Below, in pieces: positions 32,061 through 50,430 of a stretch of 64,000 nt of DNA; position 1 is the first letter of the stretch; each line of letters begins with the position of its first letter. A program made the translations under genes and the position numbers. This DNA is from Parafrankia irregularis (lineage in GTDB: Bacteria; Actinomycetota; Actinomycetes; Frankiales; Frankiaceae): assembly GCF_001536285.1 (NCBI RefSeq), contig NZ_FAOZ01000001.1, positions 372,001 through 436,000 of the forward strand, in the 5' to 3' direction. The notes beneath the pieces are model-generated. The model was not told the DNA's origin, searched no databases, and saw only the letters and a list, made by a program, of their open reading frames with translations.

Positions 32061-32077
32061 CCTGGGTTCAGCCCAGG
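32061..32077. terminator. short hairpin between convergent genes
   Basis: CCTGGG, loop TTCAG, CCCAGG lies in the 28-base gap between the ferredoxin and transglutaminase genes and overlaps the latter's stop codon. The 6-bp stem is weak. Confidence 0.4.
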
Positions 32078-32913
32078 CGGGTCACCGCGACCGTCACGCC
32101 GAGGGACGTCGACTCACCGCCCGAGTACACACCCTGCAGGGGCGGCACGTCGTGGTAGTCACGCCCGCGTGCGACGACGACATGCTGTTCACCGGCCGGT
32201 ACCCCGTTGGTCGGGTCGAAGGCCCACCACTGGCCGAGCCAGCCCTCGACCCAGGCGTGGCTCTGCCCGCTGAGGGTCTCCCCCACCTCGGCGTCCGCCG
32301 ACGGATGCTGGTAGCCCGACACGTACCGCGCCGGCAGGCCCGCGGCCCGCATCAGCACCAGGGCCAGGTGAGCGAAGTCCTGGCAGACCCCTACCCCCTG
32401 CTCCCAGGCCTCGACGGCGGACGTGCGCACCTCCGTCGTCCCGGGCTGGTAGGTCAGCTTCTCCCGCACCCAGTCACCGACGGCGGGCAGGAAGTCCGCG
32501 GGGCTGTGGGCGGCGGCGAGCTCGCGGGCCGCCGCGACCAGCTCGGGGTGCTCCGGGGTCGAGGCAGTGGGCCGGACGAACTCGACGAACCTGTCCGCGA
32601 CGGTGTCGTCGGCGAGATCCCGCCAGCTCGGGACGTCCACCGGCGGCTGCGGCGCGGGCGCCGTCTGCACCACCGAACGCCCGGTGACGACGAGCTCGGT
32701 GTGCGGGGTGTGCAGGTCGAAGGCGGTGACCTGGGTCCCCCAGTAGTCCCAGTACCGGTAGGTGGACGAGGCCGGTTCGGTCCGTACCGTGGCTTCCAGC
32801 GTCAGCTGGCGGTCCCCGGTCTGGGGGATGATCCGCGCCTCGTTGTACGAGGAGATCACCGGGCTCGCATACCGGTAGCCCGTCGAGTGCTCGATCCGGA
32901 TCTGCCAGCTCAT
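32068..32913 (-). CDS. transglutaminase-like protein (Bacterial_transglu N-terminal type)
   Basis: A 281-residue cysteine-protease-fold protein. The N-terminal beta domain begins MSWQIRIEHSTGYRYASPV. The papain-like core has the catalytic Cys in EQGVGVCQDFAHLALVLMRA, His in SGQSHAWVEGWL and Asp in WWAFDPTNGV. The ATG at 32913 has GAGGAG about 10 bases upstream; the longer frame to 32997 is Gly-rich and unconserved. Together with the next two genes it forms a conserved trio in many bacteria (transglutaminase, alpha-E, circularly permuted ATP-grasp), which suggests a peptide-bond-forming or modifying pathway with unknown substrate. Confidence 0.9.
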   Translation of the reverse strand: MSWQIRIEHSTGYRYASPVISSYNEARIIPQTGDRQLTLEATVRTEPASSTYRYWDYWGTQVTAFDLHTPHTELVVTGRSVVQTAPAPQPPVDVPSWRDLADDTVADRFVEFVRPTASTPEHPELVAAARELAAAHSPADFLPAVGDWVREKLTYQPGTTEVRTSAVEAWEQGVGVCQDFAHLALVLMRAAGLPARYVSGYQHPSADAEVGETLSGQSHAWVEGWLGQWWAFDPTNGVPAGEQHVVVARGRDYHDVPPLQGVYSGGESTSLGVTVAVTRLG

Positions 32914-33061
32914 CGTCGCGTGTCTCCTCGTCCCCTCAGCTCCGTAACCCCCAGCCCCGTACAGCCCAGCCCCGAGAGGCCCGGCACCGCGGCCCACCGG
33001 ATCCGTGATCGCACAGCGCGGACCCCACAGCGCGGCACACCGGTCGGCCCGGTCGGCCCGG

Positions 33062-34006
33062 TCAGGCCGGCACCTCGCTGGCCCAGGTATGCGGACTCTC
33101 CCGGGCGAAGTAGCGGGCCGTCACGGCCGCGCTCACCGCCGAACAGGTCCGCTGCAGCGCCGCGAGCAGGTCGGGCATCTCCGCGACGAGCTCGTCGATA
33201 CCGCGGAACTCCAGCTCCGTCCGGGCCCGCCCGACGCTACGGCGCGCGGCGTCGTCCACGGTCGCGCGCACCACCCCACGACCGGTGTCCAGCTCGCCCA
33301 GGATCTGTTCGGCGAGCGCCAGCGACCAGTAGATGGACCGTGGGAAGAGCCGGTCCAGCAGCAGGAACTCCGAGACCCGGGCCGCGTCCACGGCCCGCCG
33401 GTAGGTCCGCAGGTAGGCCTCGTGCGCACCGCAGGAACGCAGCAGGCTGATCCAGCTCTGCGAGTTGGGGTCCTCACTGATGCTGGACGACAGCAGCCGG
33501 GCGGTCATGTCGACCCGCTCGATGCTCCGGCCGAGCACGAGGAAGCGCCATCCGTCGTCACGGGCCAGGGTGGCGTCGACCAGGCCGGCGAGCATCGCCG
33601 TGCGATCCCGCACGTAGCGGAAGTAGACGTTCGGCCCCATCCGGCGGGCGAGCTCCTCGGTGTGCGGCAGCTCGTTCCAGGTGGCGTTCAGGCATTCCCA
33701 GACCTCGCTGGAGACCACGACACGGGCACCGCGCGCGTTCTCCCGCGCCGCCGACAGCGATCCTCGGATGCTCGACGAGTTCGTGGCGTCGTAGGCGAGC
33801 ACCTCGGTGACGTACCGTGAGTCCGCGGGTTCGGTGCGGTCGACGACGCCCATGACCGCCAGCAGCTGGGCGCCGGCGGACGTCTCGTCGAGCCACGGGT
33901 CCTCCAGCACCCGGTGGACGTGCACGTCGAGGATGCGCGAGGTGCACTCGGCCCGTTCGGCGTAGCGGCCGATCCAGAACAGCGACTCGGCGATGCGGCT
34001 CAGCAC
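33062..34006 (-). CDS. alpha-E domain protein (DUF403)
   Basis: A 314-residue all-helical protein beginning MLSRIAESLFWIGRYAERAE, the family hallmark. Further helices include ENARGARVVVSSEVWECLN, FRYVRDRTAMLAGLVDATLA, LGRSIERVDMTARLL and LFPRSIYWSLALAEQILG. The biochemical role of alpha-E proteins is not known; they occur next to, or fused with, circularly permuted ATP-grasp enzymes. The start overlaps the end of the ATP-grasp gene by 7 bases, so the pair is co-translated. The transglutaminase gene starts 148 bases further on. Confidence 0.9.
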   Translation of the reverse strand: MLSRIAESLFWIGRYAERAECTSRILDVHVHRVLEDPWLDETSAGAQLLAVMGVVDRTEPADSRYVTEVLAYDATNSSSIRGSLSAARENARGARVVVSSEVWECLNATWNELPHTEELARRMGPNVYFRYVRDRTAMLAGLVDATLARDDGWRFLVLGRSIERVDMTARLLSSSISEDPNSQSWISLLRSCGAHEAYLRTYRRAVDAARVSEFLLLDRLFPRSIYWSLALAEQILGELDTGRGVVRATVDDAARRSVGRARTELEFRGIDELVAEMPDLLAALQRTCSAVSAAVTARYFARESPHTWASEVPA

Positions 34007-35613
34007 GCCTGCGCCTCCTCCCCCATCACGCTCGACCGGGCCTGGTTCTGCTGCTCGGACTGCTGTTGCTGCTGCTCGTCGGACGAGTGCGGGCCGAGGT
34101 CGGGCCCGGGCGCCACCGACGGGGACGGCCCGGAACGCCGGATCGGCGGCGCGGTCTCCCGCCCGAGCCGTTCCGGGGCGAGCACCCAGGTGTCCTTGGA
34201 GCCCCCGCCCTGGCTGGAGTTCACGACCAGGCTGCCGCGGGGCAGCGCGACCCGGGTCAGGCCGCCGGGCAGCACCCAGATCCGGTTCCCGTCGTTGACG
34301 GCGAACGGGCGCAGGTCGACGTGCCGGGGGCCGAGCCGGTCGCCGGCGAGCGTCGGCGAGGTGGAGAGCTTCACGACCGGCTGGGCGATCCAGCCGCGCG
34401 GGTCGCCCAGCACCCGGGCCCGCAGCTCGGCGAGCTCCGCCTCGGTCGCCTGCGGCCCGATGACGATTCCCTTGCCGCCGGAGCCGTCCACCGGCTTGAC
34501 CACCAGCGCGTCGAGGTTGTCCAGGACGTGCGCCCGCTGGTCGGGCTCCTCGAGCCGGAAGGTGTCGATGTTGCGCAGGACCGGCTCCTCACCCAGGTAG
34601 TAGCGGATGAGGTCCGGGACGTAGGTGTACATCAGCTTGTCGTCGGCGACGCCGTTGCCGACCGCGTTGGCGATCGTCACGTTGCCGGCCCTGGCCACGT
34701 TCAGCAGGCCGGCGCACCCGACCATCGACTCCGGGCGGAAGTGCAGCGGGTCGAGCCAGTCGTCGTCGACCCGCCGGTAGATCACGTGCACGGGCTGGTC
34801 ACCCTCGGTGGTGCGCATCGTGACCCGGTTGTTGCGCACCGACAGGTCCCGGCCCTCGACCAGCTCGACACCCATCTGCCGGGCCAGCAGCGCGTGCTCG
34901 AAGTAGGCCGCGTTGTAGACCCCGGGGGTGAGCACGACCACGGTCGGGTCGGCGACCTCGGGCGGCGCCGCCGCACGCAGGGCGTGCAGCAGATGGGTCG
35001 CGTAGTCGGCCACCGGACGCACCCGGTGCGTCGCGAACAGCTCCGGGAAGACCCGGGTCATCGCCCGCCGGTTCTCGATGACGTAGCTCACTCCGGACGG
35101 GACGCGGACGTTGTCCTCGAGGACCCGGAAGTCCCCGTTCTCGTCGCGGACGAGGTCGATGCCGCTGACGTGGGCACGGACACCGTTCGGCGGGTCGACG
35201 CCGTGCGCCGCGCGGTGGAAGTGCGAGCTCGACAACACGAGCCGGCGGGGCACGATGCCGTCCGCGAGCACCTCGGCGGGCCCGTAGACGTCCGCGAGGA
35301 ACGCCTCCAGGGCGCGCACCCGCTGCACGACACCGCGTTCGATGACGTCCCACTCGTCCCCGGAGAGCAGCCGGGGGACCAGGTCCAGGGGGAACGGGCG
35401 TTCCTCCCCGAAGAGGTTGAAGGTGATGCCGGCGTCCCGGAAGGCCCGGTCCAACGCCACCTTGCGGGCAGCAAGGTCGGCGCTGCTCAGCGGCTGGAGC
35501 GCGTCGTGCAGGGCGGAGTACACATCCCGGGGGCGGTGGGTCGGGTCGAAGACCTCGTCCCACGCAGCCGCCGCAACGACCTCCGCCGCATACCCCTCGA
35601 ACAGGTCGGCCAC
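34000..35613 (-). CDS. circularly permuted ATP-grasp protein with glutamine-rich tail
   Basis: A 537-residue enzyme-like protein of the DUF404/DUF407 class, predicted to join a carboxylate to an amine using ATP. Landmarks are GITFNLFGEERPFPLDLVPR, HVSGIDLVRDENGDFRVLED, NVRVPSGVSYVIENRRAM, LMYTYVPDLIRYYLGEEPVL and DALVVKPVDGSGGKGIVIGP, the last being the ATP-binding loop. The C-terminal 50 residues are unlike the family and include SSDEQQQQQSEQQNQARS, coded by CAG-rich repeats. It is the first gene of the trio. Its substrate is unknown. Confidence 0.9.
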   Translation of the reverse strand: MADLFEGYAAEVVAAAAWDEVFDPTHRPRDVYSALHDALQPLSSADLAARKVALDRAFRDAGITFNLFGEERPFPLDLVPRLLSGDEWDVIERGVVQRVRALEAFLADVYGPAEVLADGIVPRRLVLSSSHFHRAAHGVDPPNGVRAHVSGIDLVRDENGDFRVLEDNVRVPSGVSYVIENRRAMTRVFPELFATHRVRPVADYATHLLHALRAAAPPEVADPTVVVLTPGVYNAAYFEHALLARQMGVELVEGRDLSVRNNRVTMRTTEGDQPVHVIYRRVDDDWLDPLHFRPESMVGCAGLLNVARAGNVTIANAVGNGVADDKLMYTYVPDLIRYYLGEEPVLRNIDTFRLEEPDQRAHVLDNLDALVVKPVDGSGGKGIVIGPQATEAELAELRARVLGDPRGWIAQPVVKLSTSPTLAGDRLGPRHVDLRPFAVNDGNRIWVLPGGLTRVALPRGSLVVNSSQGGGSKDTWVLAPERLGRETAPPIRRSGPSPSVAPGPDLGPHSSDEQQQQQSEQQNQARSSVMGEEAQAC

Positions 35614-37171: not shown

Positions 37172-38377
37172 ATGGCAACCGCGGTAACGGGCCCGACCGG
37201 GTTCCTCGGCCTCCGTCTCGTCCGGGCGCTGCTCGATCGCGATCATGACGATTCGCTGATCCTGCTCGCCCACACCGGATCCACGGCGGCGATCGACCGG
37301 CTCTCCTGTTTCCTGACGGCCGCCGGCGCCGGACCGCGCCGGACCGAGGAGCTGCTGCGCCGGGTCCGGATCGTCGACGTCGACGTCGCACGGCCGCGGC
37401 TGGGCCTGACCGAGGCCGCCTTCGAGGAGCTGGCCGACCAGATCGACGTCCTGTGGCACTCCGCCGCGTCCACCAGCCTCAGCGGCGAGCTCGCGGACCT
37501 GCGGCGGGTGAACGTCGACGGCACCCGGCACGTCCTGGAGCTGGCGGCCGCCGGCGCGCGCCGGCCGGTCGTCCACCATGTGAGCACCGCGTTCGTGGTG
37601 GGCCGCAGGTCCGATCCGGTCATCTACGAGGATGACCTCGCCCGGCCCGCGGACGGCTTCGAGACCGACTACGAGCACACGAAGTACGACGCCGAGGTGC
37701 TCGTCCACGAATGGTCGGCCGCAACCGGCCGCCCGGCCGTCGTGTACCGGCCGAGCATCCTCGTCACGGACCAGCCGCCGCGCCCCGACCTGCCCGAGCA
37801 GACGCTGACGGCCGTCACCCGGGCGATCGTGACCGTCGCCGCGCTGGCCGTCGACCGGGGACTCGGCACCGGCCCGCGGGACCCGGGCCGCGTCCAGACC
37901 ATCCGCATCGTGGGTAACCCCCGTGCCAGCTGGAACATGATGCCGGTCGAGGACGCCGCCCGGGACATGGTCCGGATCGCGCAGCGGGTCCGCCCGCGCG
38001 GGGTCGCCACGTTTCACATCGTGCACGACGAGAACCTGCCGGTCTCGACCCTGTGCGAGCTGCTGGAGAGTCAGCTCGCGGTGCGGATGCAGCTGGTCGC
38101 CGACTACCCACGGGATCCGACCGCGATCGAGGAGCTGATCTACCGAATCCCGGGGTTCCCCAGGTACCTGGAACATCGACACGTCTTCGACGACACCCGG
38201 GCGCGGACCACGCTGGGTGAGCGGACGTCCGACACCCGGGTCGACCGGGACTACCTGCTGTCCGCGATCGGCGCCGCGACCGCCCCGAGGACTCGCGACG
38301 CCCTGGGGGACCAGGATCTCGACCAGGCGCTGTCCGAGCGCCTGCGCGCCGCCCTCGCCCCGGAGGGCGCCCGATGA
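37172..38377 (+). CDS. thioester-reductase-type SDR (NAD_binding_4 family)
   Basis: A 401-residue NAD(P)-dependent protein of the extended SDR class found as terminal reductase domains in carboxylic acid reductases, NRPS/PKS and HglB/HetM. The nucleotide motif is AVTGPTGFLGLRLVRALL (1-20). The Ser/Thr-Tyr-Lys set appears as HHVSTAFVVG and FETDYEHTKYDAEVLVHEW. A substrate part follows (RPSILVTDQPPRPDLP). Such enzymes release an acyl chain from a carrier protein as aldehyde or alcohol, or reduce an acyl-CoA. It overlaps pfaD by 4 bases (ATGA), so it belongs to the synthase unit and most likely off-loads its product. It has no carrier domain of its own, unlike HglB. Confidence 0.82.
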   Translation: MATAVTGPTGFLGLRLVRALLDRDHDDSLILLAHTGSTAAIDRLSCFLTAAGAGPRRTEELLRRVRIVDVDVARPRLGLTEAAFEELADQIDVLWHSAASTSLSGELADLRRVNVDGTRHVLELAAAGARRPVVHHVSTAFVVGRRSDPVIYEDDLARPADGFETDYEHTKYDAEVLVHEWSAATGRPAVVYRPSILVTDQPPRPDLPEQTLTAVTRAIVTVAALAVDRGLGTGPRDPGRVQTIRIVGNPRASWNMMPVEDAARDMVRIAQRVRPRGVATFHIVHDENLPVSTLCELLESQLAVRMQLVADYPRDPTAIEELIYRIPGFPRYLEHRHVFDDTRARTTLGERTSDTRVDRDYLLSAIGAATAPRTRDALGDQDLDQALSERLRAALAPEGAR

Positions 38378-40176
38378 CCGGGCGACCGACGACGGGACGA
38401 CCGACGACGGGACGGCCGACGACGGGACGGCCGACGACCGGGCGACCGACGACCGGCGCGGCGCGAGTCGGCGCACGTGGCACGGCCCCGGTCGGGACCC
38501 GCGGCGCGGCACGGCTCGGGACCCGCGGCGTGGCGCGGCCCGACATCCGCGGCGCCGCACCGGTCGGCCGGCCCTCGTACGGCCCGCCGACCTGGCAGCC
38601 GGGGACCCAGCCGGCCGCGTTCACCGGGCCGGAGCTGGCGGCGGCCGCACGCCTGGTACGCGAGCCAGCGCACCTGCTGTCGGTGCCCGGCCGCGGAACC
38701 GGACTCGGCCTCGGAGTCGGCGGCCGGATCGGTCCCGGACGTGGATCCGGGCCCACGGTCGTCGCGACGCTGCCGCCGCTGTACCCGGAATGGCTGGGTG
38801 ACCGCTCGTTCACCGAGACACACCAGGTGCGCTTCCCTTACATCGCCGGCGAGATGGCCACCGGAATCGCCACCACCGGCCTGGTCACGGCGATGGCCCG
38901 GGCGCAGATGCTGGGGTTCTTCGGCTCGGGCGGGCTGGCTCCCGACCGGATCGAGGACGCCGTCCGCACCCTGGCCCGGGATCTGGCCGACCGGTCGAAC
39001 TGGGGCGTGAACCTGCTGCACTCGCCCGGTATCCCGGCGCTGGAGGAGGCCACCGCGGCGATCCTGCTGCGGCACCCGGTTCCCCGCATCTGCGCGTCGG
39101 CGTTCATGACGATCACACCGGCCGTGGTCCGCTGTGCCGTGGACGGGCTGCGGCGGGCCCCGGACGGGACGGTGGTTCGCGCCCGCCGGATCTTCGCCAA
39201 GATCTCCCGGCCGGAGGTGGCCGAGCAGTTCATGTCGCCCGCACCCGCGGCGGTGCTGCGCACGCTGGCCGCCCGCGGTGAGATCACCGCCGAGGAGGCG
39301 GAGCTGGCCGCCGGGATCCCGATCGCGCAGGACATCACCGTCGAGGCCGACAGCGGCGGGCATACCGACGGGCGCCCGCTGGGCGTGCTGCTGCCCGCGG
39401 TGCAGGCCACCCGGGACCAGGTCGTGGCGCGTTTCGGCTACCGCGAGCCGATCCGGGTGGGCGCGGCCGGCGGGCTCGGCACGCCCCAGGCGGTCGCGGC
39501 GGCGTTCGCGCTCGGCGCGGCCTACGTGCTCACCGGGTCGGTGAACCAGGTGAGCGCCGAGTCCGGGCAGTCCGGGCCGGCGCAGGCGATGCTGGCGTCG
39601 GCCGGCATCGCCGACGTGGCGATGGCCCCGGCGGCGGACATGTTCGAGCTCGGCGCGAAGGTCCAGGTGCTGCGCCGCGGCACGATGTACGCGGCCAGGG
39701 CCGGTGCGCTCTACGACGCCTATCGCCAGCACCCGTCGCTGGAGGCGATCGACGGCCCGGCCCGGGCCAGGCTGGAGCGGGACGTCTTCGGCGCCACGTT
39801 CGACGACGTGTGGGCACGCACCCGCGACTACTGGCAGCAGCGTGATCCCGGCCAGCTCGACCGCGCCTCGCACGATCCGAAACACCGGATGGCCCTGGTG
39901 TTCCGGTGGTACCTGGGCAGCTCCGGGCGGTGGGCGCTCGCCGGCGCCACCGACCGGCGCGCCGACTACCAGATCTGGTGCGGGCCGGCGATGGGTGCCT
40001 TCAACGACTGGGTCCGCGGCAGCCATCTGGCCGATCCGGCCAACCGGTCCGTCGTCCAGATCGCGCTCAACCTGCTCGAGGGCGCCGCCGTGCACACCCG
40101 GTTCCAGCAGCTGCGTGCCTGTGGGCTCCCGATGCCGGTCGCGCGGTTCGCCCCCCGCCCCCTCGAACCGCGATAG
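38374..40176 (+). CDS. pfaD: PfaD-family trans-acting enoyl reductase
   Basis: A 600-residue flavin-dependent TIM-barrel protein of the nitronate-monooxygenase/PfaD family, which reduces the double bond in iterative polyunsaturated fatty acid type synthases. Landmarks are FPYIAGEMATGIATTGLVTA, AQMLGFFGSGGLAPDRIEDA, NWGVNLLHSPGIP, VEADSGGHTDGRPLGVLLPA, VGAAGGLGTPQAVAAAFALG and YVLTGSVNQVSAESGQ. The C-terminal helical part runs to RFAPRPLEPR. The first 60 or so residues are a low-complexity leader beginning with five near-identical TGRPT units encoded by a 15-base tandem repeat; family similarity starts near residue 72. It starts in an ATGA overlap with the reductase gene and ends 71 bases before the synthase. 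Confidence 0.93.
   Translation: MTGRPTTGRPTTGRPTTGRPTTGRPTTGAARVGARGTAPVGTRGAARLGTRGVARPDIRGAAPVGRPSYGPPTWQPGTQPAAFTGPELAAAARLVREPAHLLSVPGRGTGLGLGVGGRIGPGRGSGPTVVATLPPLYPEWLGDRSFTETHQVRFPYIAGEMATGIATTGLVTAMARAQMLGFFGSGGLAPDRIEDAVRTLARDLADRSNWGVNLLHSPGIPALEEATAAILLRHPVPRICASAFMTITPAVVRCAVDGLRRAPDGTVVRARRIFAKISRPEVAEQFMSPAPAAVLRTLAARGEITAEEAELAAGIPIAQDITVEADSGGHTDGRPLGVLLPAVQATRDQVVARFGYREPIRVGAAGGLGTPQAVAAAFALGAAYVLTGSVNQVSAESGQSGPAQAMLASAGIADVAMAPAADMFELGAKVQVLRRGTMYAARAGALYDAYRQHPSLEAIDGPARARLERDVFGATFDDVWARTRDYWQQRDPGQLDRASHDPKHRMALVFRWYLGSSGRWALAGATDRRADYQIWCGPAMGAFNDWVRGSHLADPANRSVVQIALNLLEGAAVHTRFQQLRACGLPMPVARFAPRPLEPR
38377..38451 (+). repeat. 15-base tandem repeat inside pfaD, five copies
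   Basis: Five 15-base units such as ACGGGACGGCCGACG encode Thr-Gly-Arg-Pro-Thr repeats right after the pfaD start codon. Units differ at one to three bases. Such repeats can gain or lose copies without a frameshift. Confidence 0.9.
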
Positions 40177-40247
40177 GCCGACGTTCGCGACCAGACGGTG
40201 GGAACGGAACAGACGGCGACAGGCCGGCGGACAAGGAGGATGACCAG

Positions 40248-43200
40248 ATGTCGGACGCCGAACGCGCCCCACAGCCCCCGATCGCGGTGGTCGGCGTCGG
40301 GGCCATCATGCCGGGATCGACCGACGCCGCGGGCTTCTGGACCTCGATCATCCGCGGTGAGGACCTGATCACGACGGTCCCGCCGTCCCACTGGCTGGTC
40401 GACGACTACTACGACCCGGACCCGACCACGCCGGACAAGACCTACGTCCGTCGCGGGTCCTTCCTGCCCACTGTGGCCTTCGACCCGACCCGGTTCGGCA
40501 TACCGCCCAACATCATCCCCGCGACGGACACGGCCCAGCTCTTCGCGCTGCTGGTGGCCGACCAGACCCTTCGCGACGCCCTGGGCGACCGGTACGACTC
40601 CGCCGACCGCAGCGGCATCGGGATCATCCTCGGCAGCGGGAACCTGGAGCTGCTGACCGAGGTCTCCACCCGGCTGGGCCGGCCCACCTGGCTGCGGACC
40701 CTGCGCGAGCTGGGCTACCCGCCCGAGGAGGCGGAGCGGATCTGCCAGCGCATGCTCCGGGACTATCCGCAGTGGCAGGAGGCCACCCTGCCGGGCGGTC
40801 TGGGCAACATCGTCGCGGGCCGGGTCGCGAACAAGCTTGACCTGCACGCGGTGAACTACACCGTCGACGCGGCCTGCGCGAGTTCGCTGGCGGCCGTCTC
40901 CGCCGGCGTGAACGAGCTGGTCCTGGGCCGCGCCGACATGATCATCGCCGGTGGGGTGGACGCGCTGAACAACCCGACCACCTTCGTCAGCTTCTCCAAG
41001 ACACCGGCGCTGTCCCCGTCCGAGGACTGCCGGCCCTTCTCCGCCGCGGCGGACGGGACGCTGCTCGGCGAAGGGGTCGGCATGGTCGCGCTCAAGCGGC
41101 TCGCCGACGCGCAAAGTGACGGTGACCGGATCTACGCGGTCATCCGGGGCATCGGGTCGTCGTCCGACGGCCAGGGCCAGGCGATCTACGCGCCGGCGAT
41201 CGGCGGCCAGGTCCGCGCGGTGCGGGCCGCCTACGCCGACGCCGGGTACGGGCCGGACACGGTCGAGCTGGTCGAGGCACACGGTACGGGCACACCGGTC
41301 GGAGATCGGATCGAGGTGAACGCGCTGTCCGAGGTGTTCGGGGAGAGCGGGCGTCCCGATCGGCGCTGGTGCGCGCTGGGGTCGGTGAAGTCGCAGATCG
41401 GGCACACGAAGTCGGCGGCCGGAGCGGCCGGCCTGCTCAAGGTCGTGCTCGCCCTGCACCACCGGGTGCTCCCCCCGACCATCAAGGTCGGCGAGCCGAA
41501 CGCCGACCTCGATCTCGAGTCCGGGCCGTTCTACCTGAACACGGTCAGCCGGCCGTGGCTGCGCACAGCCGCCTATCCGCGCCGTGGCTCGGTGTCGAGC
41601 TTCGGCTTCGGCGGCATCAACTTCCACATCGCGGTCGAGGAGGCCCCGGATCCGGTCGACCGGCCGGATGGCGACGCGCCCGCGTCGTTCCGTTCCACCG
41701 AGTCGTCCCGTTCCGCCGCGTCGTCCCGTTCCGCCGCGTCGCCCCGTTTCACGGTGTCGACGTCCACGCATCGGTCCTGGCCCGGTCCCGGCAGCGAGCT
41801 GATCCTGTTCTCCGCCGAATCCCCGGAGGATCTCCTGCGGGCCGTCCGCGCGGTTGAGGCGCGCCCGCCAGCCGAGGTCGCCCGCGAGCGTGCCGCCGAC
41901 TTCGACCCTCGCCACCCCGCCCGGCTCGCGGTGGTCGCGAACACCACCGAGTGCCTCACCGACGCACTCGACCAGGCGGCGAACCTGATCGCCCAGCGGC
42001 CAGGGCAGTCCTTCACCAACCCGCGGGGCGTGCACTACGCGGCCGGCGCGCCACCATCCGCGCGGCCGGTCTTCCTCTTCCCCGGCCAGGGCAGCCAGTT
42101 CAGCGGGATGGGCGTGGACGTGGCCGTGCGCTACCCGGCCGCGAAGGCGGTCTGGGACCGGTTCGGCGACCTGAAGATCGGCGAACCGGCGAACGGCGGC
42201 CCCGCGAACGGCAGCGCGGCCGGCGGCAGCGCGGCGAACGGCTCGGACACGCTGCGGCGGGTCGTCTTCCCGCCGCCGGCGTTCACCACCGCCGAACGCG
42301 CGGCGCACCGGGACGCGCTGACCGCGGCCGCGCAGCCCGCCATCGCCGCCCACTCCCTGGCCCTGCTCGCGGTGCTGGCGTCCTACGGCGTCGAGCCGGC
42401 CGCGGTGGCCGGGCACAGCTTCGGTGAGCTCACCGCCCTGCACGCGGCCGGGGTCTTCGACGCGGACCAGCTCATCCGGCTCGCCCACTTCCGCGGTGAG
42501 CTGATGCGCCGGACCATCGCCACGACACCGGGCCGGATGCTCGCCGTGTCGGCCGCGCGCGACGACGTGATCTCCGTGATCGACGGGGCCAGGCTCTCCG
42601 AGGTGTGGCTGACGAACCACAACGCTCCCCGCCAGGTCGTCCTCTCCGGCTCCGGCGAGTGCCTGGAGGCCATGCGCGAACGGCTCGCCGCCGACGGCGT
42701 CACCACCCGTTGGCTGGACACGGCCACGGCCTTCCACTGCCCGCTGGTCCGCGCGGCCCGCGATCCGCTGCGACGGTTCCTCGACGACGTGCCGATGCGC
42801 CCGCCGCGGATTCCGGTGCACGCCGGGCTCGACGGAAGGCCGCACCCCGACGACCCGGAGCTGATCCGCGACCGGATCGCCGAGCAGCTCACCTCGCCCG
42901 TGCTGTTCCTCGACGAGATCGAGGCCCTGTACACGTCCGGGGCGCGGGTGTTCGTCGAGGTCGGCCCCGGTTCCACGCTGACCGGGCTGGTCGGGCAGAT
43001 CCTCGATGGCCGTGAGCACGTCGCCGTCAGCCTGGACCGCCCCGGGCAGGACGGTGACGCGTCGCTCCAGTCCGCGCTGGGCCTGCTGGCCGTGCACGGC
43101 GTGCCCCTCGACCTGCGTCTGGTCACGGACGCACCGCGACCCGCGACGCCGACCCGGAGGCCGGTGATGACGATGGAGATCGACGGAGCGAACTACGGGC

Positions 43201-46200
43201 ATCTGGGCATGTCGACCGGGTCACGCGAGGCGCAGGTCGCCGCCGGCTCTGTCACGGTGCCATCGAACGGGACCGGTAACGGGCACTATCCGACGCGCGG
43301 CCTGTCCTCGCCGGCACCGGTCACGCCGCCGCGGCCGTCCCCCACCCCGGCGGAACCGACGCCATCGCCGCAGGCCACGGCACCGCGACAGACCACGGCG
43401 TCTCCGGAGGCGATGGCACCGCCCGAGACAACGGCACCGCCCGTGAGCACGGCACCGCCCGCGACCATGGCGTCTCCGGAGCCGATGGCACCGCCGGAGG
43501 CCATGGCACCGCCGGACGCGATGCCGCTACCGGAGCCCGTTTCGACGTCTGAGCCCATGGCGGTGCCCAGGGCGACGCCGGCGCCGGGGGCGATCGACAT
43601 GTCGGGATCGGCCTGGTCGGCCGCACTCGTCGACGTACACCGGCGGACCACGGAGGCGCACACCGCCTTCGCGCAGCTCATGACCGAGGCACACCTGGAG
43701 TTCCTGCGCATGTCGGGCACTGCCTTCACCTGGCTGCTCGCCGGGCAGGACGAAGCGGGCGCCGGGGACGTCCTGTACACCGAGGCTGCGTCCAGCCCGC
43801 CGGCACCGCTCGCCCCCGCCCCTGTCCCTGCCCCCATCGCGGCACCCGTCGCGGCCCCCGCCCAGGTAGCCCCGGGGCCGGCCGCCCCTGCCCAGGAAGC
43901 ACCCAGCCCCGCGCCCGTCAGCGCGCCCTCCGGCACCCCGACGAGCGCGGCACCGGATGTGGCGGTGCAGCCGCCGGAGACCAGCGAGGCCACGCCGCCC
44001 ATGGCCGCACCGGATCCCGAGGAGATCGCACGGCTGCTGATCGACACCGTGGCCGAGCGCACCGGTTATCCGGTCTCGGTGCTCTCGCTGGACATGGAGA
44101 TGGAGAACGACCTCGGCATCGACTCGCTGAAGAAGATCGAGATCCTGTCCGCGCTGCGCCAGCACGCGGGCGACGCGGTGCTCGACATGAGCGAGGGCGA
44201 CAACATCGCCGAGCTGGGCGCGGCCCGGACACTGCGCGACGTGGTGGAGCTGATCCGCCGGCACATCGACGAGGCTGCCGGGGGCGAAGCCGGAGCCGCG
44301 GCCGGTACCGGCCCGACGACGAACGAGGCGACCGGCGACCAGAACATCCAGGTGGGGCAGCCGAACGGGCAGCAGCCGGCCCCCGACGACCCGGCCGCAC
44401 CGGCCGCCGGGGGTGAGGCCCCCTTTCGAGGCGGCGCGCCAACCGGTCAGGGCGGAGGCGGATCCGACGACGCGGCCGGGCTGACCGCCTCGGTCGAGGC
44501 CCTCGTCCGGGCACCGGCTCCCGGACTGGCGCTGCCTGGGCTGGGCCTGGGACCCCTGGTGATCGTCGACGGCGGGAGCGGGGTGGCCGCACCGCTGGCG
44601 GACCGGCTGCGGGCGGCCGGCCTCGACGTGACGGTCCGGGGCGGTGACCAGCCGAAGCCGGACGGCACGTCGCCCCCGGGCGGTGAGCTGTCCCCGGACG
44701 GCATACTGCCCGCCGAGACCGGTGGCCTGATCCTGCTCGGCGCGCTGGCCGAGCTCGGCGCCACCCAGCCGGCGCAGCCGGCAGCGGTGGCGGCCCTGGC
44801 GGTTCAGGAGGAGTCCTTCCGCTGGGTGCGCGCGGCCGCCGCCACCGCCGTGGCCCGCGCCGGCGTCCTCGTGACCGTCCAGGACACCGGTGGCGACTTC
44901 GGGCTGTCCGGCCGCCACGGCGACCGGGCCTGGCTCGGCGGTCTGGCCGCGTTGGCCCGCGCCGCGGGCACCGAGTGGCCGGAGACGTCGGTGAAGGCCA
45001 TCGACTGTGAGCGGGGTGGGCGGGACGCCGGCCAGGTGGCCGCCGCCATCGCGCAGGAGGTGCTCTGGGGCGGCGCCGAACGGGATGTCGGGCTGTCGGC
45101 CGGCGGCACCCGTGTCGCCGCTCGCACCGTGCCGGCCCCGCTCGCGACGTCCGGGGCAGACCGGACCGGGGAGAGCCCGCAGGCGGGGCTGCGCCTCGGC
45201 CCCGACTCGGTGGTGGTCGCCACCGGCGGGGCTCGCGGGATCACCGCCGCCGCCATGCTGGAACTGGCGCGGCGCTACCGCCCGCGGCTGGCGCTGCTGG
45301 GTCGCACCAGGCTGGCGGACGAGCCGGCGGGCCTGGCGGCGGCGACGGACGAGGCCGGGCTGATCCAGTTGTTGGCGTCCCAGCGCGGTCCGGAGGTGGG
45401 ACCGGCGCGGATCCGCGCCGAGGCGCGCGAGGTGCTCGCTGTCCGCGAGGTGCGTGCCACCCTCGCCGCGCTGGCGGAGCTCGGCGTCCCGGCCCGCTAC
45501 CTGGTCGCCGACGTACGCGACGCCGACGCGGTGTCGGCGGCGCTCGGCGAGGTCCGGCGGGAGTGGGGGCCGGTGACCGCGTTCGTCCACGGCGCCGGAA
45601 CACTCGCGGACAAGCTCATCCCCGACAAGTCGGACGAGGCGTTCCACCGGGTGCTCGCCACGAAGGCCGGTGGCCTGCTGACCATGCTCACCCAGCTGCG
45701 TGACGACCCACTCGACCTGATCTGCCTGTTCTCCTCGGTGACCGGCTGGTTCGGGAACGCCGGCCAGTGCGACTACGCGATGGCCAACGCCACTGTGGAT
45801 CAGGTGGCCTCGGTGCTCGCGGCGGGCGGGGATGCCGCGCGCCCCGGCGACGGCCGGGCGGACGATCAGTCGGGTGATCGGGCGGACGATCGCGGCGATC
45901 GGGTGGTCCGGTCGATCGCCTGGGGGCCGTGGGCCGGGGGCATGGTCGACCCGCTGCTCGCCGGCGTGTTCGCCCAGGCCGGTGTCGCGGCCATCCCGGT
46001 CGCCCGGGGCGCCGCCGCCTTCGCCGACGAGATCGCCCGGCACCGGCCGGATCCCCGGATCATGATCGCCGCGTCGGGCCCGAACGCCACCAGCGTTGAT
46101 CATCTGGACGGCCTCGACCGGTCCGACGACAAGGCCGACGGTGACAGCTGGGCGAGGGCCGGGCTGCTGGGGCAGGTCACCGTGCGCCGGCAGACCCATT

Positions 46201-47072
46201 CCTGGCTTTCGGACCACAGCCCGGCCGGCACGGCGGTGGCGCCGCTGGCGCTGGCCCTCGACTGGCTGGCGCGGGGGGCACGGGCCAGCACCCGCGACGT
46301 CGAGTCCGGCCTGCTCCTGCGGGACCTGCGGGTGCTGCGCAAGGCCTCGCTCCCCCACCTGGCCGACCAGGGCCACCACCTGCTTGTCCGCGCCGACACA
46401 GCCGACGCGGCCGGCGCACCCGAGCGGGCGGGCACGCCCGGCCCGCCGGAGCTGGTCCTACGGCTGTACGGCGATGACGGCGCGCCCCGGTACTCCGCGC
46501 GGCTGACCCGCCAGCCCGACCGCGGACGCGGGCCGTCCGGGCCGTCCGGGGCGGCCGGGGCGGCCGGCTCCACCGACGGTTCCTGGCCGACTCCGGACGG
46601 GCTGATCCCCGGCGGCCCGGATCAGGACCAGACCCGCATCTACGCCCAGGACGCCCTCTTCCACGGCCCCCGTTTCCAGGCCATCACCGAGATGACGGCC
46701 ATGTCCGAACAGGGCGCCGAGGCCGTCGTCGTCGGGGTCGACGCGCTGGACTGGGGCGGCGGCGCCGACTGGTATCTCGACGTCGCGGCCTTGGACGGCG
46801 GGATGCAGCTCGCCGGTGTCTGGGCCTGGCGGGTGCTCGGCGGCGCCCTGCCGGTGGCCGTCCGGGAGTGCCGCATCCACCAGCCCGGCCTGCTGACCCG
46901 GCCGGCCCGCGCGGTCGTGCTGGCGGCGGGGATGAACGGCGACAGCGTCACCTTCTGCGATGTCGCGGTCGTCGACGACGACGGTGCCGCCCGGATCGAG
47001 CTGATCGGCGTGGAACTGGTCCTGCGGCCCGACCGGGTGAAAACCGCCCAGGGGGTCCGCCCGCGGGTCTAG
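40248..47072 (+). CDS. PfaA/Hgl-like iterative type I synthase, KS-AT-ACP-KR-DH
   Basis: A 2274-residue multidomain synthase. The ketosynthase (about 10-460) has active Cys 210 in VDAACASSLAAVSAG, His 345 in EAHGTGTPVGD and His 386 in SQIGHTKSAAGAAGL. The acyltransferase (about 600-960) has Ser 724 in AVAGHSFGELTALHAAG and His 830 in ATAFHCPLV. A Pro/Ala/Thr-rich linker and one carrier domain follow, with Ser 1293 in ENDLGIDSLKKIEIL. The ketoreductase (about 1650-1920) has VVATGGARGITAAAMLELAR and Tyr 1843 in GQCDYAMANATVDQ. The C-terminal PS-DH-type hot-dog dehydratase has His 1990 in HSWLSDHSPAG and Asp 2183 in DVAALDGGMQLAG. All catalytic residues are present. With PfaD it can fully reduce each extension. 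AAGGAGG precedes the ATG. A single carrier and no chain-length-factor KS set it apart from PUFA synthases. Confidence 0.93.
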   Translation: MSDAERAPQPPIAVVGVGAIMPGSTDAAGFWTSIIRGEDLITTVPPSHWLVDDYYDPDPTTPDKTYVRRGSFLPTVAFDPTRFGIPPNIIPATDTAQLFALLVADQTLRDALGDRYDSADRSGIGIILGSGNLELLTEVSTRLGRPTWLRTLRELGYPPEEAERICQRMLRDYPQWQEATLPGGLGNIVAGRVANKLDLHAVNYTVDAACASSLAAVSAGVNELVLGRADMIIAGGVDALNNPTTFVSFSKTPALSPSEDCRPFSAAADGTLLGEGVGMVALKRLADAQSDGDRIYAVIRGIGSSSDGQGQAIYAPAIGGQVRAVRAAYADAGYGPDTVELVEAHGTGTPVGDRIEVNALSEVFGESGRPDRRWCALGSVKSQIGHTKSAAGAAGLLKVVLALHHRVLPPTIKVGEPNADLDLESGPFYLNTVSRPWLRTAAYPRRGSVSSFGFGGINFHIAVEEAPDPVDRPDGDAPASFRSTESSRSAASSRSAASPRFTVSTSTHRSWPGPGSELILFSAESPEDLLRAVRAVEARPPAEVARERAADFDPRHPARLAVVANTTECLTDALDQAANLIAQRPGQSFTNPRGVHYAAGAPPSARPVFLFPGQGSQFSGMGVDVAVRYPAAKAVWDRFGDLKIGEPANGGPANGSAAGGSAANGSDTLRRVVFPPPAFTTAERAAHRDALTAAAQPAIAAHSLALLAVLASYGVEPAAVAGHSFGELTALHAAGVFDADQLIRLAHFRGELMRRTIATTPGRMLAVSAARDDVISVIDGARLSEVWLTNHNAPRQVVLSGSGECLEAMRERLAADGVTTRWLDTATAFHCPLVRAARDPLRRFLDDVPMRPPRIPVHAGLDGRPHPDDPELIRDRIAEQLTSPVLFLDEIEALYTSGARVFVEVGPGSTLTGLVGQILDGREHVAVSLDRPGQDGDASLQSALGLLAVHGVPLDLRLVTDAPRPATPTRRPVMTMEIDGANYGHLGMSTGSREAQVAAGSVTVPSNGTGNGHYPTRGLSSPAPVTPPRPSPTPAEPTPSPQATAPRQTTASPEAMAPPETTAPPVSTAPPATMASPEPMAPPEAMAPPDAMPLPEPVSTSEPMAVPRATPAPGAIDMSGSAWSAALVDVHRRTTEAHTAFAQLMTEAHLEFLRMSGTAFTWLLAGQDEAGAGDVLYTEAASSPPAPLAPAPVPAPIAAPVAAPAQVAPGPAAPAQEAPSPAPVSAPSGTPTSAAPDVAVQPPETSEATPPMAAPDPEEIARLLIDTVAERTGYPVSVLSLDMEMENDLGIDSLKKIEILSALRQHAGDAVLDMSEGDNIAELGAARTLRDVVELIRRHIDEAAGGEAGAAAGTGPTTNEATGDQNIQVGQPNGQQPAPDDPAAPAAGGEAPFRGGAPTGQGGGGSDDAAGLTASVEALVRAPAPGLALPGLGLGPLVIVDGGSGVAAPLADRLRAAGLDVTVRGGDQPKPDGTSPPGGELSPDGILPAETGGLILLGALAELGATQPAQPAAVAALAVQEESFRWVRAAAATAVARAGVLVTVQDTGGDFGLSGRHGDRAWLGGLAALARAAGTEWPETSVKAIDCERGGRDAGQVAAAIAQEVLWGGAERDVGLSAGGTRVAARTVPAPLATSGADRTGESPQAGLRLGPDSVVVATGGARGITAAAMLELARRYRPRLALLGRTRLADEPAGLAAATDEAGLIQLLASQRGPEVGPARIRAEAREVLAVREVRATLAALAELGVPARYLVADVRDADAVSAALGEVRREWGPVTAFVHGAGTLADKLIPDKSDEAFHRVLATKAGGLLTMLTQLRDDPLDLICLFSSVTGWFGNAGQCDYAMANATVDQVASVLAAGGDAARPGDGRADDQSGDRADDRGDRVVRSIAWGPWAGGMVDPLLAGVFAQAGVAAIPVARGAAAFADEIARHRPDPRIMIAASGPNATSVDHLDGLDRSDDKADGDSWARAGLLGQVTVRRQTHSWLSDHSPAGTAVAPLALALDWLARGARASTRDVESGLLLRDLRVLRKASLPHLADQGHHLLVRADTADAAGAPERAGTPGPPELVLRLYGDDGAPRYSARLTRQPDRGRGPSGPSGAAGAAGSTDGSWPTPDGLIPGGPDQDQTRIYAQDALFHGPRFQAITEMTAMSEQGAEAVVVGVDALDWGGGADWYLDVAALDGGMQLAGVWAWRVLGGALPVAVRECRIHQPGLLTRPARAVVLAAGMNGDSVTFCDVAVVDDDGAARIELIGVELVLRPDRVKTAQGVRPRV

Positions 47073-49591
47073 TCGACGACGCGCAGCGCGGCCGGGACGT
47101 CCATCCGGCGCACACGCCGCGCGGCCAGCAGGGGGGCTGCCGCCACCGTCAGCACCCCGAGCAGCAGGCTGGTGGCCACCGTCCGCGCGGACAGGGTCGC
47201 CGGGATCCCGAGGTCGGGCAGGGTCTCGGCGACCAGCACCTCGACCGTGTACCGAAGCGCCCAGTAGCCGGCGAGCAGGCCGAGCAGCGTCCCGAGCAGG
47301 CCGATGAGGGCGCTCTCGGCCACGGTCAGGCCGAGCACGGTGCGCGCCGGCAGGCCGAACGCCAGCATGGTCGCGTGTTCGCGGCGGCGTTCCTCCATCG
47401 CGATGGTCATCGCGTTGTAGGCGATGAGCAGGGCGAGCAGGAGCACCACGAGCTCGGCGATCCGCAGGATGCCGACGAAGTTGCGCAGCAGGGAGCGGAT
47501 CTCCTCGATGCTCGCCGTGGCCGGCACGACGGCGCCGGCGCCGGGGACGGTGAGGATCGCCCTCGTCGCCGCCGTCTCGTCGTAGCCGGGCGCGGGCCGG
47601 ACCATCAGCGAGTTCGTCTCGCCGGCGAGGTTGAACGCGCCGGCAGACCCGCTGTCGAGGAACACCACCGAGCGCACCGGGAAGGCGTGGATGCCGGCCA
47701 CCCGCACCGGTGTGTCGACGGACCGCAGCCCGCCGCCCACCCGGGTCGGATGGCGCAGTGTCAACGTGTCCCCGGGCTCGACGCCCAGGTCCTCCGCGGC
47801 CTTCTGCGCGATGAGCAGACCACCGGTCGCAGCGCCCTTGGTCACCCGCGGGGTCCACATCGCGTCGTGGTAGGCGAAGACGTAGGTGATCACATTCACG
47901 CCGTCACCAGCTCCGGGCGCGGCGCCGGCACCCGCGGGCAGCAGTTGTCCCGGCAGTGCCAGGCCGGTGTCGACCTCCGCGACCGCGGGCAGGCGGCGGA
48001 CGGCGGCGACGGTCGGCCCGTCCACCGGCTCCACCGCGGGCAGCGTCACGCGTAGGCGGTCCCGGGCGCCGGTGGTCAGCTCCGCCTCGGCGCGATCGGT
48101 CGTCCCGGTGAACGTGTCGAGCTGACCGGTGAACACGACAAGGGCGGTGATGGCCGCCGCGATGCCCAGGGCGGTCAGCAGCGTCCGGCGCGGGGTTCGG
48201 GCCAGGTTGCGCACCGGCATCCGCCGAATGCTCCCGCCGGGTGACGGCAGCCGCCGCGCGGCCCGCACCAGTGAGCTGGAGCGCGCGGCGACCGCCGTGA
48301 CCCGGATCGCCTCGACCGGCTCCGAGCGCACCACCCGCAGGACCGGCCCGACGGCGGCCAGCAGTGGGAGCACCAGCCCGATCACCGCGGCTCGGGCGAA
48401 GATCGAGGCCTGGAAGTCGGTATGCCAGTAGGGCAGCGGGCCGATGTCGCGCATCAGCGAACCCATGGCGGCGGCGACCAGGAGCCCGACGCCGATGCCG
48501 GCGACGACGCCGAGCACGGCCACCTGCACGCCCAGCAGCAACGGCCGCAGCGCGAGCAGGCCGGGACGCACGCCAAGTGCCATCGCGATGCCGATCTCCC
48601 GGCGCTGGGCGTCGACCGCCCGGCCGACCAGGTTGAACGCGGCGAAGACCGCACCGGCCAGCACGAGGACAGCCAGCACATCCCACAGGCGCTGGTCACT
48701 GTCGATCGCGTCGTAGAGCAGTCGGTAGGACGCCAGTTCGCCCCGGTCCGTGACGGTGGTGCTTACGTCCGGGAATGTCGCGGCCAGCGCGCCGGACAGT
48801 TCCACCCGCACGGTGTCGACATCGGTGCCCGGACGGACGGTGAGCACCACGTCGTTGACCCGGCCAGGCAGGCCAGCCAGGCGCTGCGCGGTCGGGAGCG
48901 AGGTGAACAGCGCGGCGAACCCGGTCTGGGTGATCAGACCCGGCTGATCCCCCGGCAGGACGAAGGACTCGGGCGACTGACCCTGCCCGACGTAGGTGAC
49001 CTCGGCCCCGCCGCTGATCTGGACAGTTCCGCTCGCCGGCAGGTGGTTCGCGTGGCCGAACGTGCGATCCAGCACGCCGACGGGCCGCCCGGGCGCGGAC
49101 ACGCCGCTCGCGGACGCGCCGAGCCCGTGGCCGACCTCGACCGCCACGGAGTCGACCGGCGGTGACGCGGTCAGATCGCTCCCGACGACCTCGCCGCGCG
49201 CGAGGACGTCCCGGTCGCCGGCGGTCACCTCGACCTCGGCCGGGAAGATCAGCCGCTCGACGACGCCGGCCACATCCGGCGCGCTCGGCAGGGAGCGGAC
49301 GAGACCGGCGAGCCGGCCCTGCTCGACCGTGCTCCCGGCGTTCAGGTGCGCGCGCAGGTCGTGGACGTGGAGCTGGGCGAAGCTGGCGTCGTAGGACTGC
49401 CGCCGCCACTGCGAGGAGCTGGACAGCCCGGCGTACAGGCCGGTGCCGAGACCGATCGTGACGGCCAGCGCGAGCACCAGCAGCCAGCGCTGGCGCAGGT
49501 CCCGCCACGACCAGCGCAGCCACAGCGCCACCGACCCGACCGCTGCCGACCGGTTCGCCGCCGACCGCTCCCCCGTCGATCCGACCCCCAC
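47069..49591 (-). CDS. ABC transporter permease, FtsX/MacB-type, two FtsX modules
   Basis: An 840-residue inner-membrane permease. An N-terminal span (WLLVLALAVTIGLGTGLYAG, about 36-55) is followed by a large periplasmic-type domain, an FtsX core (about 300-420, with DAQRREIGIAMALGVRP), a second N-terminal span (LLTALGIAAAITALVVFTG), another external domain, and a second FtsX core near the C-terminus with MEERRREHATMLAFGLPART. This duplicated layout is that of LolE/MacB-like exporters acting on lipids, lipoproteins or peptides. It starts 11 bases after the ATPase gene. Its stop shares CTAG with the stop of the synthase coming the other way. The substrate is unknown. Confidence 0.9.
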   Translation of the reverse strand: MGVGSTGERSAANRSAAVGSVALWLRWSWRDLRQRWLLVLALAVTIGLGTGLYAGLSSSSQWRRQSYDASFAQLHVHDLRAHLNAGSTVEQGRLAGLVRSLPSAPDVAGVVERLIFPAEVEVTAGDRDVLARGEVVGSDLTASPPVDSVAVEVGHGLGASASGVSAPGRPVGVLDRTFGHANHLPASGTVQISGGAEVTYVGQGQSPESFVLPGDQPGLITQTGFAALFTSLPTAQRLAGLPGRVNDVVLTVRPGTDVDTVRVELSGALAATFPDVSTTVTDRGELASYRLLYDAIDSDQRLWDVLAVLVLAGAVFAAFNLVGRAVDAQRREIGIAMALGVRPGLLALRPLLLGVQVAVLGVVAGIGVGLLVAAAMGSLMRDIGPLPYWHTDFQASIFARAAVIGLVLPLLAAVGPVLRVVRSEPVEAIRVTAVAARSSSLVRAARRLPSPGGSIRRMPVRNLARTPRRTLLTALGIAAAITALVVFTGQLDTFTGTTDRAEAELTTGARDRLRVTLPAVEPVDGPTVAAVRRLPAVAEVDTGLALPGQLLPAGAGAAPGAGDGVNVITYVFAYHDAMWTPRVTKGAATGGLLIAQKAAEDLGVEPGDTLTLRHPTRVGGGLRSVDTPVRVAGIHAFPVRSVVFLDSGSAGAFNLAGETNSLMVRPAPGYDETAATRAILTVPGAGAVVPATASIEEIRSLLRNFVGILRIAELVVLLLALLIAYNAMTIAMEERRREHATMLAFGLPARTVLGLTVAESALIGLLGTLLGLLAGYWALRYTVEVLVAETLPDLGIPATLSARTVATSLLLGVLTVAAAPLLAARRVRRMDVPAALRVVD

Positions 49592-49602: not shown

Positions 49603-50430
49603 CTACCAGCGCAGATCGGACACGGGGATGGACCCGTCGGGCGGCGGGCCGTCCGCCACGACGTGGCCGCTGGACAGTTCGACCACCCGGTCGGCGACCC
49701 GGGCGATCTCCCGGTTGTGGGTGACCACCAGGACCGTGCGGCCCGCGTCGGCCTGTGCTCGCAGCAGGGCGAGGATCTGCACACCGGTACCGAAGTCCAG
49801 CTCACCGGTGGGCTCGTCGGCGAGCAGGATCGGGTTGCCGGTCGCCAGGGCGCGCGCGATGGCCACCCGCTGCTGCTCACCGCCGGAGAGCTGGTGGGGG
49901 AAATGGTCGGCCCGATGGCCCAGGCCCACCTCGGCCAGCAGCCGCTCGGTGGTCTCCCGGGCCTGGCCGCGACCGGCCGCGTCGGCGCCGAAGCGTACGT
50001 TCTCCCCCGCGGTCAGCGCCGGGAACAGGTTGAACGACTGGAACACGAAGCTCACGGTCCGGCGCCGGACCTCGCGGCGGCGGCGGCGGGAGGCACCGGC
50101 CAGGTCGGCCCCGTCCAGCGTCACCGTGCCGCAGGTGGGGGTGTCGAGGGCGCCGACAAGGTTGAGCAGTGTCGTCTTCCCACAGCCCGACGGACCGAGG
50201 ATGACGATGAAGGCGGCGCCCTCCACCCGCAGGCTCACCCCGGACAGCGCGGTGACCGCCGACTCACCGGCCCCGTAGCGCCGGCCGACCCCGTCCAGCG
50301 CCAGCCGGGCGCCGGACGTGCCACTCCCGGGGATGTCCGCGTGATCCGCAGAATCCACGGAATCCGGGTGATCAGCGTCGCCACCGTTCCAGCGCACCGG
50401 CCCCCCATCGCCAGCCTGCGAACCACTCAC
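49603..50430 (-). CDS. ABC transporter ATP-binding protein, MacB/LolD type
   Basis: A 275-residue ATPase. Walker A is LGPSGCGKTTLLNLVGALD, the Q-loop is in SFVFQSFNLFPALTAGENV, the signature is HQLSGGEQQRVAIARALA, Walker B is PILLADEPTGELD and the switch His is in VLVVTHNREIARVADRV. These match the MacB/LolD subfamily that pairs with FtsX-type permeases, and the next gene is such a permease. The first 40 residues are a hydrophilic Asp/Gly/Ser/His-rich extension not usual for the family. The start is GTG. Confidence 0.93.
   Translation of the reverse strand: MSGSQAGDGGPVRWNGGDADHPDSVDSADHADIPGSGTSGARLALDGVGRRYGAGESAVTALSGVSLRVEGAAFIVILGPSGCGKTTLLNLVGALDTPTCGTVTLDGADLAGASRRRRREVRRRTVSFVFQSFNLFPALTAGENVRFGADAAGRGQARETTERLLAEVGLGHRADHFPHQLSGGEQQRVAIARALATGNPILLADEPTGELDFGTGVQILALLRAQADAGRTVLVVTHNREIARVADRVVELSSGHVVADGPPPDGSIPVSDLRW

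Follow-up and report, generated by a model that had tools for sequence, protein, structure and literature searches.

In prokaryotic polyunsaturated fatty acid (PUFA) synthases, the ketosynthase (KS) known as KS_A elongates C2, C4, C6, C10, C16 and C18 chains and the ketosynthase–chain-length factor pair (KS-CLF) elongates C10 and C20 chains; a polyketide synthase (PKS)-type dehydratase (DH) followed by an enoyl reductase (ER) leads to a saturated unit, and a FabA-type DH gives a cis double bond by isomerisation (PMC9702510). In the myxobacteria Minicystis and Sorangium, such enzymes are encoded by pfa1 (PfaD), pfa2 (KS-AT-ACP-KR-PKS-type DH) and pfa3 (KS-CLF-AT-FabA-type DH-AGPAT), with pfaE located elsewhere (PMC8436480). 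The zeamine fatty acid synthase/PKS Zmn10-Zmn14 of Serratia plymuthica combines a single-ACP PfaA, PfaD and a stand-alone thioester reductase without PfaB, and it further possesses PfaC, an aminotransferase domain on PfaD and a non-ribosomal peptide synthetase partner (PMC3547906). The Pfa-like heterocyst glycolipid synthase Hgl (Type F) carries a KS-CLF-AT protein, HglC (PMC3098273). Here we describe a three-gene operon at positions 37172-47072 of a 64,000-nucleotide stretch of the Parafrankia irregularis genome (9.5 Mb, Frankiaceae; contig NZ_FAOZ01000001.1, 372,001 to 436,000; referred to as the window), which probably encodes a reduced, Type L-like relative of these PUFA-type synthases that would act iteratively, saturate its chain, work without PfaC and release its product reductively. 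The genes of the operon are as follows:

37172-38377, plus strand: stand-alone thioester reductase-type short-chain dehydrogenase/reductase (SDR), predicted to release the chain (401 aa; Pfam NAD_binding_4)
38374-40176, plus strand: trans-acting PfaD-family FMN enoyl reductase with a repetitive N-terminal extension (600 aa; TIGR02814)
40248-47072, plus strand: PfaA-type synthase with the order KS-AT-ACP-KR-DH (2274 aa; Pfam domains, TIGR02813, catalytic residues)

All three genes show a strong coding signal in coding statistics, and the reductase gene and pfaD are coupled by an ATGA overlap. Together with the profile matches, this signal confirmed the three genes, their positions and their coupling as an earlier note, made from the sequence alone, had described them. 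The reading frame of the synthase is open already from 39906, and its likely start is the ATG at 40248, which has an AAGGAGG a few bases upstream. Neither a KS-CLF gene nor a PfaB gene lies inside the operon, as the note had also stated. A phosphopantetheinyl transferase (PPTase), which the note had stated to be absent from the window, would have to activate the ACP from outside it; the sole PF01648 match of the genome, a 289-aa protein on contig C7, is a candidate for this role.

The synthase is divided by Pfam into KS, AT, ACP, KR and a weakly matched PKS-type DH, with the following limits (catalytic residues in synthase numbering):

40269-41645, plus strand: KS domain (PF00109/PF02801, KS tree; C210, H345, H386)
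42048-43145, limits approximate, plus strand: AT domain (PF00698; S724 in GHSFGE)
44034-44195, plus strand: single ACP (PF00550; S1293 in GIDSLK)
45198-45845, plus strand: KR domain (PF08659, 2.1e-28; Y1843, N1847)
46158-47015, limits approximate, plus strand: PKS-type dehydratase (PF21089, weak; H1990 in H-x8-P)

The residues of KS, AT, ACP, KR and DH could thus all be located, in agreement with the claim that every catalytic residue of the synthase is in place. The motifs of the KS cysteine, the first KS histidine, AT, ACP, KR and DH are present in all Frankia orthologues examined, each of which has one ACP. In some of them, the second KS histidine does not stand within a literal IGHT, which is read as a probable change in a neighbouring residue. 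The linker between AT and ACP is rich in proline and alanine and arises from 18/36/72-bp repeats at 43347-43523; the synthase of Parafrankia sp. EUN1f is split near this position, possibly by an assembly error.

A scan of GTDB genomes yielded 80 loci, eight of which came from Frankia/Parafrankia and the remainder mostly from Streptomyces, other actinomycetes and myxobacteria. The KS tree (73 rows) and the PfaD tree are quick trees with SH-aLRT support and no bootstrap, and the former holds neither canonical Type A/B sequences (Shewanella PfaA) nor Hgl KS sequences. The Frankia operon KS form a single clade (SH-aLRT 100) that nests with those of Sorangium So ce26, Minicystis rosea and Azospirillum (SH-aLRT 99); outside it fall the second Frankia cluster, which groups with Rhodococcus, as well as the Type M-like, Beijerinckia (Type P) and ArsA-type KS and that of an annotated enediyne PKS. 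The PfaD tree is concordant with the KS tree, and the synthase scores 1038 bits against TIGR02813 (omega_3_PfaA, NCBIfam), just above the cut-off of 1010. Because of the KS grouping, the domain order, the TIGR02813 score and the adjacent pfaD, the synthase is assigned on sequence grounds to the PfaA-type secondary-lipid (PUFA-like) synthases of the Type L clade (Shulse & Allen). The earlier note had proposed a Pfa-type secondary-lipid synthase and named the KS phylogeny as the analysis that could overturn it; the tree did not do so, and the KS falls with the myxobacterial PUFA synthases, which appear from these trees to be the nearest characterised relatives.

The order KS-AT-ACP-KR-DH is also that of enediyne PKSs. 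Accordingly, the likeness of the Frankia enzyme to Pfa2 might be a coincidence of domain order in an enediyne-type or a mycocerosic/modular PKS, and an annotated enediyne cluster (L154) is indeed among the retrieved KS-AT matches. This explanation is extremely improbable in view of the KS, which lies in the PUFA-synthase clade with a support of 99 and leaves the enediyne KS far outside, of the adjacent PfaD and the TIGR02813 score, and of the flanks and the synthase itself, where enediyne accessory genes were not seen next to the operon and Pfam found no PPTase domain. As modular PKSs contributed no KS above the extraction threshold, they are excluded via the Pfa-specific model score and clade placement only.

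The myxobacterial Type L systems (Pfa1-Pfa2-Pfa3 of Sorangium, Aetherobacter and Minicystis) share with the Frankia operon a PfaD followed by a PfaA, the domain order of Pfa2, the KS and PfaD clades and a PPTase at a separate locus (PMC8436480). They differ in having Pfa3/PfaC and several ACPs, whereas the Frankia locus has neither Pfa3/PfaC nor more than one ACP and adds a thioester reductase and a linked ATP-binding cassette (ABC) transporter. Compared with the make-up described for pfa1-pfa2-pfa3 in Minicystis and Sorangium, the operon therefore reads as pfa1-pfa2 plus a reductase, minus pfa3. In other actinomycetes, a PfaC gene comes after the series reductase, PfaD and PfaA, and its product contains KS, CLF and AT domains and two to three FabA-type DH domains. 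A CLF probe gave a clear match in 28 of the 29 reductase-linked loci outside Frankia for which the downstream sequence was long enough (the match was weaker in L115) and no match in any of the six Frankia loci with sufficient flank, and in the window the synthase gene ends at a convergent permease gene. In the whole genomes of P. irregularis (G000), EUN1f, P. soli, ACN14a and CcI3, the best match to the probe reached only 70 bits, compared with 206-584 bits for true CLFs of the family; as these values come from two different programs, weight is given only to the size of the gap. The operon likewise lacks a KS-CLF gene resembling HglC, and the genome yielded no CLF of the probed type. The note had suggested a search for other clusters with such a KS; the genome holds two further pfa-like clusters. 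A complete PUFA synthase of Type A, B or L includes a PfaC with KS-CLF and a FabA-type dehydratase/isomerase, and the gene content indicates that the Frankia operon is not one.

A close arrangement is that of Streptomyces clusters (e.g., L101, L120 and L146), which likewise begin with reductase, PfaD and PfaA in this order and have one ACP, but also a fourth gene, PfaC (KS-CLF-AT, two to three FabA-type DH), that is absent in Frankia, and which lack a close counterpart of the Frankia ABC permease. The four-gene cluster with an upstream thioester reductase occurs in these three and about 30 other Streptomyces-type loci, and no described product of it was found. One ACP was counted in all 29 non-Frankia reductase-linked relatives (29/29), and a single carrier domain is therefore normal in this family. 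It was wrongly taken as a distinguishing mark in the note; what sets the Frankia operon apart is the missing PfaC. Loss of KS-CLF is not unique to Frankia: loci of Actinomadura, Kibdelosporangium and Amycolatopsis (L110, L132, L138, L139, L144) also have no KS-CLF and carry PfaD and PfaA with an AT/FabA-type DH protein, and the Actinomadura AT-DH protein was confirmed by Pfam to be without KS-CLF. Zeamine biosynthesis is a precedent for a single-ACP PfaA without PfaB combined with a stand-alone thioester reductase, but with PfaC.

PfaD scores 637 bits against TIGR02814 (pfaD_fam; cut-off 449) and matches the PfaD structures 6lkc and 4yx6 in the PDB at about 1e-141. Its TTGRP-repeat N-terminal extension derives from tandem repeats of 15 bp (38371-38456) and 24 bp (38454-38568), and shorter PfaD orthologues are without it. 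In heterocyst glycolipid synthesis, thioester-reductase release is associated with HglB/HetM. The first gene of the Frankia operon likely encodes such a release enzyme, judging from sequence and from an AlphaFold2 model (mean pLDDT 76). Its best Pfam match is NAD_binding_4 (1.8e-43), its GxxGxxG and Y167xxxK171 motifs are invariant across 11 homologues, and all five PDB sequence matches (5/5) are terminal reductase (R) domains or carboxylic acid reductases. The five best-ranking folds for the model are terminal reductase domains, from MxaA and from a S. coelicolor PKS (TM 0.65-0.70), and sugar-nucleotide SDRs rank after them with lower query TM. The protein might also be a tailoring reductase acting, for example, on a ketone, as OleD-like SDRs do, with the chain released by hydrolysis or transfer; the fold is common to many sugar-nucleotide SDRs, other extended SDR families match too, and TIGR01746 is matched below its cut-off. 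We consider this improbable, given that terminal thioester reductases and carboxylic acid reductases account for all of the best matches in both sequence and structure, that the operon has no thioesterase or acyltransferase release domain, and that the reductase is the first gene in every complete operon copy.

Among 40 related genomes, the operon was found in eight Frankiaceae genomes (Frankia/Parafrankia) including this one, in which the gene order reductase-PfaD-synthase is preserved (PfaD of AgB32 and F. gtarii was located by tblastn). The reductases of the seven others are 52-95% and their PfaD 69-98% identical to those of the window, with 98% for PfaD in EUN1f, the nearest named relative. 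A second PfaD class of about 50% identity is more widespread in the same 40 genomes, CcI3 included. The ratio dN/dS against EUN1f is 0.05 for KS, 0.12 for PfaD and 0.25 for the reductase, and that of KS against CpI1 and AgB32 is 0.23; since these values are low, the operon is considered to be under purifying selection. The KS stem in the tree looks long, and a burst of change specific to the KS after loss of PfaC was considered; the domain distances give a general speed-up of change in the Frankia operon with only a slight KS excess, and this idea was abandoned. A decaying, non-working remnant of a four-gene PUFA synthase would explain the absence of PfaC, the apparent frame breaks in two draft orthologues and the genome G005, where only a PfaD-like fragment with three stops is left. 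We judge such decay very improbable, because the catalytic motifs are kept in the Frankia orthologues examined (the IGHT pattern excepted), dN/dS is low, and operon and transporter have stayed together in two genera despite changed upstream flanks. The fragment of G005, which belongs to the same genus and has no operon, is short (C6:43080-43292) and perhaps a remnant.

Two genes on the opposite strand probably belong to the same unit:

47069-49591, minus strand: FtsX/MacB-type ABC permease, convergent with the operon (Pfam FtsX, MacB_PCD)
49603-50430, minus strand: ABC transporter ATPase paired with the permease (Pfam ABC_tran, 1.7e-34)

The convergent permease lies downstream of the operon in the window and in EUN1f, ACN14a, CpI1, QA3, F. 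gtarii, AgB32 and G003, that is, wherever the downstream flank of a Frankia locus is long enough, and the ATPase is found beside it also in ACN14a, CpI1, F. gtarii and EUN1f. In P. soli, the contig with the operon ends and the permease sits on another contig. The upstream flanks vary among the Frankia loci. Permease and reductase occur in exactly the same eight of 20 family genomes and neither occurs in the other 12; since genomes without both exist within both genera, the match does not follow from one shared ancestor alone. No close permease copy was found in ten relatives outside Frankia. The three genes of the earlier note are real, and the unit is probably larger than the note had drawn it, with the FtsX-type permease inherited strictly along. 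A Methylosinus plasmid (L158) presents a parallel to the Frankia transporter, with an ArsA-like lipid PKS followed by an ABC permease, an ATPase and an RND adaptor.

The genes with their domains and catalytic residues, the family placement, the lack of PfaC/CLF, conservation, selection and the co-inheritance of the permease are sequence-level results, and from them we infer iteration, saturation, reductive release and export. The AT would load malonyl onto the single ACP, the sole KS would decarboxylate and condense, and each two-carbon unit would then be reduced fully through KR, the PKS-type DH and PfaD, an enoyl reductase acting in trans; the single synthase would be used iteratively without a PfaC subunit. 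The stand-alone thioester reductase would free the chain from the ACP, yielding an aldehyde or, with a second reduction, an alcohol. The convergent FtsX-type ABC transporter would probably carry this product, or something derived from it, through the membrane. A saturated product is expected because the operon has no FabA-type dehydratase/isomerase. With the reductase nearest to R domains, a mostly or fully reduced chain that is released reductively, as suggested in the note, is still the best reading; that the chain is long, as also suggested, does not follow, for the literature assigns C10 and C20 elongation to the missing KS-CLF.

Several points weigh against an iterative, saturating synthase with reductive release. 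Given the C10 and C20 substrates of KS-CLF (PMC9702510), a KS_A acting alone may come to a halt at medium chain length, and either the specificity of the Frankia KS has widened or the chain is short. The Pfam match of the DH domain is weak (PF21089, 1.3e-4), and the reductase reaches 145 bits against TIGR01746 (thioester reductase, NCBIfam), below the cut-off of 213 bits. The synthases of EUN1f and P. soli are frame-broken in low-complexity AT-ACP or ACP-KR linkers; both genomes are drafts, and the splits are for this reason not read as decay. Moreover, all eight operon genomes (8/8) also carry cluster b, one of the two further pfa-like clusters, whose FabA-type DH could act in trans.

Cluster b (contig C3; L037/L054) encodes a PfaA (KS-AT-ACP2-KR), a PfaD and a middle protein that has a FabA-type DH at its C-terminus, and it is also present in ACN14a and CcI3. 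In the middle protein, about 750 residues without a Pfam match precede this DH. The other locus, on contig C10 with counterparts in ACN14a and CcI3, encodes an ER fused to PfaA, together with another protein that has KS and AT and, in CcI3, also DH and PPTase; the locus is taken as Type M because it matches Renibacterium, a Type M member (PMC13291983; Shulse & Allen, PMC3098273). The operon itself had been suspected to be Type M, since this type was reported in Frankia; this was dismissed, as the fused PfaDA/PfaBC-PPTase locus lies elsewhere, on C10, and its KS clade differs. Type M clusters are thus Pfa-like and share genomes with the operon, but they have a fused PfaD-PfaA, a PfaBC with DH and PPTase, and a KS of another clade, none of which is found in the operon. 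A further locus, on contig C16, holds a multi-KS PKS with a thioester reductase domain and an AT-PfaD protein. It might be supposed that the operon is incomplete and borrows either the FabA-type DH of cluster b or, from the Type M-like cluster, its second KS, which would lead to an unsaturated or longer chain, and the presence of cluster b in every operon genome speaks for such an exchange. Nevertheless, both clusters own PfaA and ER parts, their KS fall into separate clades, and CcI3 and others keep cluster b without the operon, so that the co-occurrence may only mirror its wider spread; borrowing is therefore regarded as unlikely, though not negligible.

The reduced Type L-like synthase can also be read in a bolder form, as the pared-down saturating half of a PUFA synthase in which one KS carries out all elongation steps of KS-CLF and a saturated long-chain aldehyde or alcohol, released reductively, is exported to the cell envelope by a dedicated FtsX-type transporter. 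This proposal is tentative. If true, the operon would encode a bacterial type I lipid synthase that is both minimal and self-sufficient, and none of such kind was found described. A role in the envelope of the nitrogen-fixing vesicle is attractive in this respect, and it is weakened by CcI3, which forms a vesicle envelope (PMC12501873) yet has no operon; a general role in vesicle-envelope lipids is accordingly unlikely. The literature on envelope mutants and the nodule proteome of F. alni gave no link to the operon.

Elsewhere in the window, consecutive transglutaminase-like, Alpha-E and circularly permuted ATP-grasp genes occupy 32068-35613, and a tight block of genes on the minus strand (53815-59602), with a class V aminotransferase at 54279-55604, looks like a SUF iron-sulphur operon from gene size and order, only the aminotransferase protein having been checked.

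In PUFA synthases the labour appears to be split, with KS_A, the PKS-type DH and ER making the saturated units and KS-CLF and the FabA-type DH providing cis double bonds and certain elongations. The Frankia operon represents a natural experiment: it is without the second half, and the first has been retained under selection. The Streptomyces four-gene family suggests that PUFA-like synthases with reductive release are a little-explored group, and in Frankia three genes suffice to ask whether KS_A alone builds the full chain.

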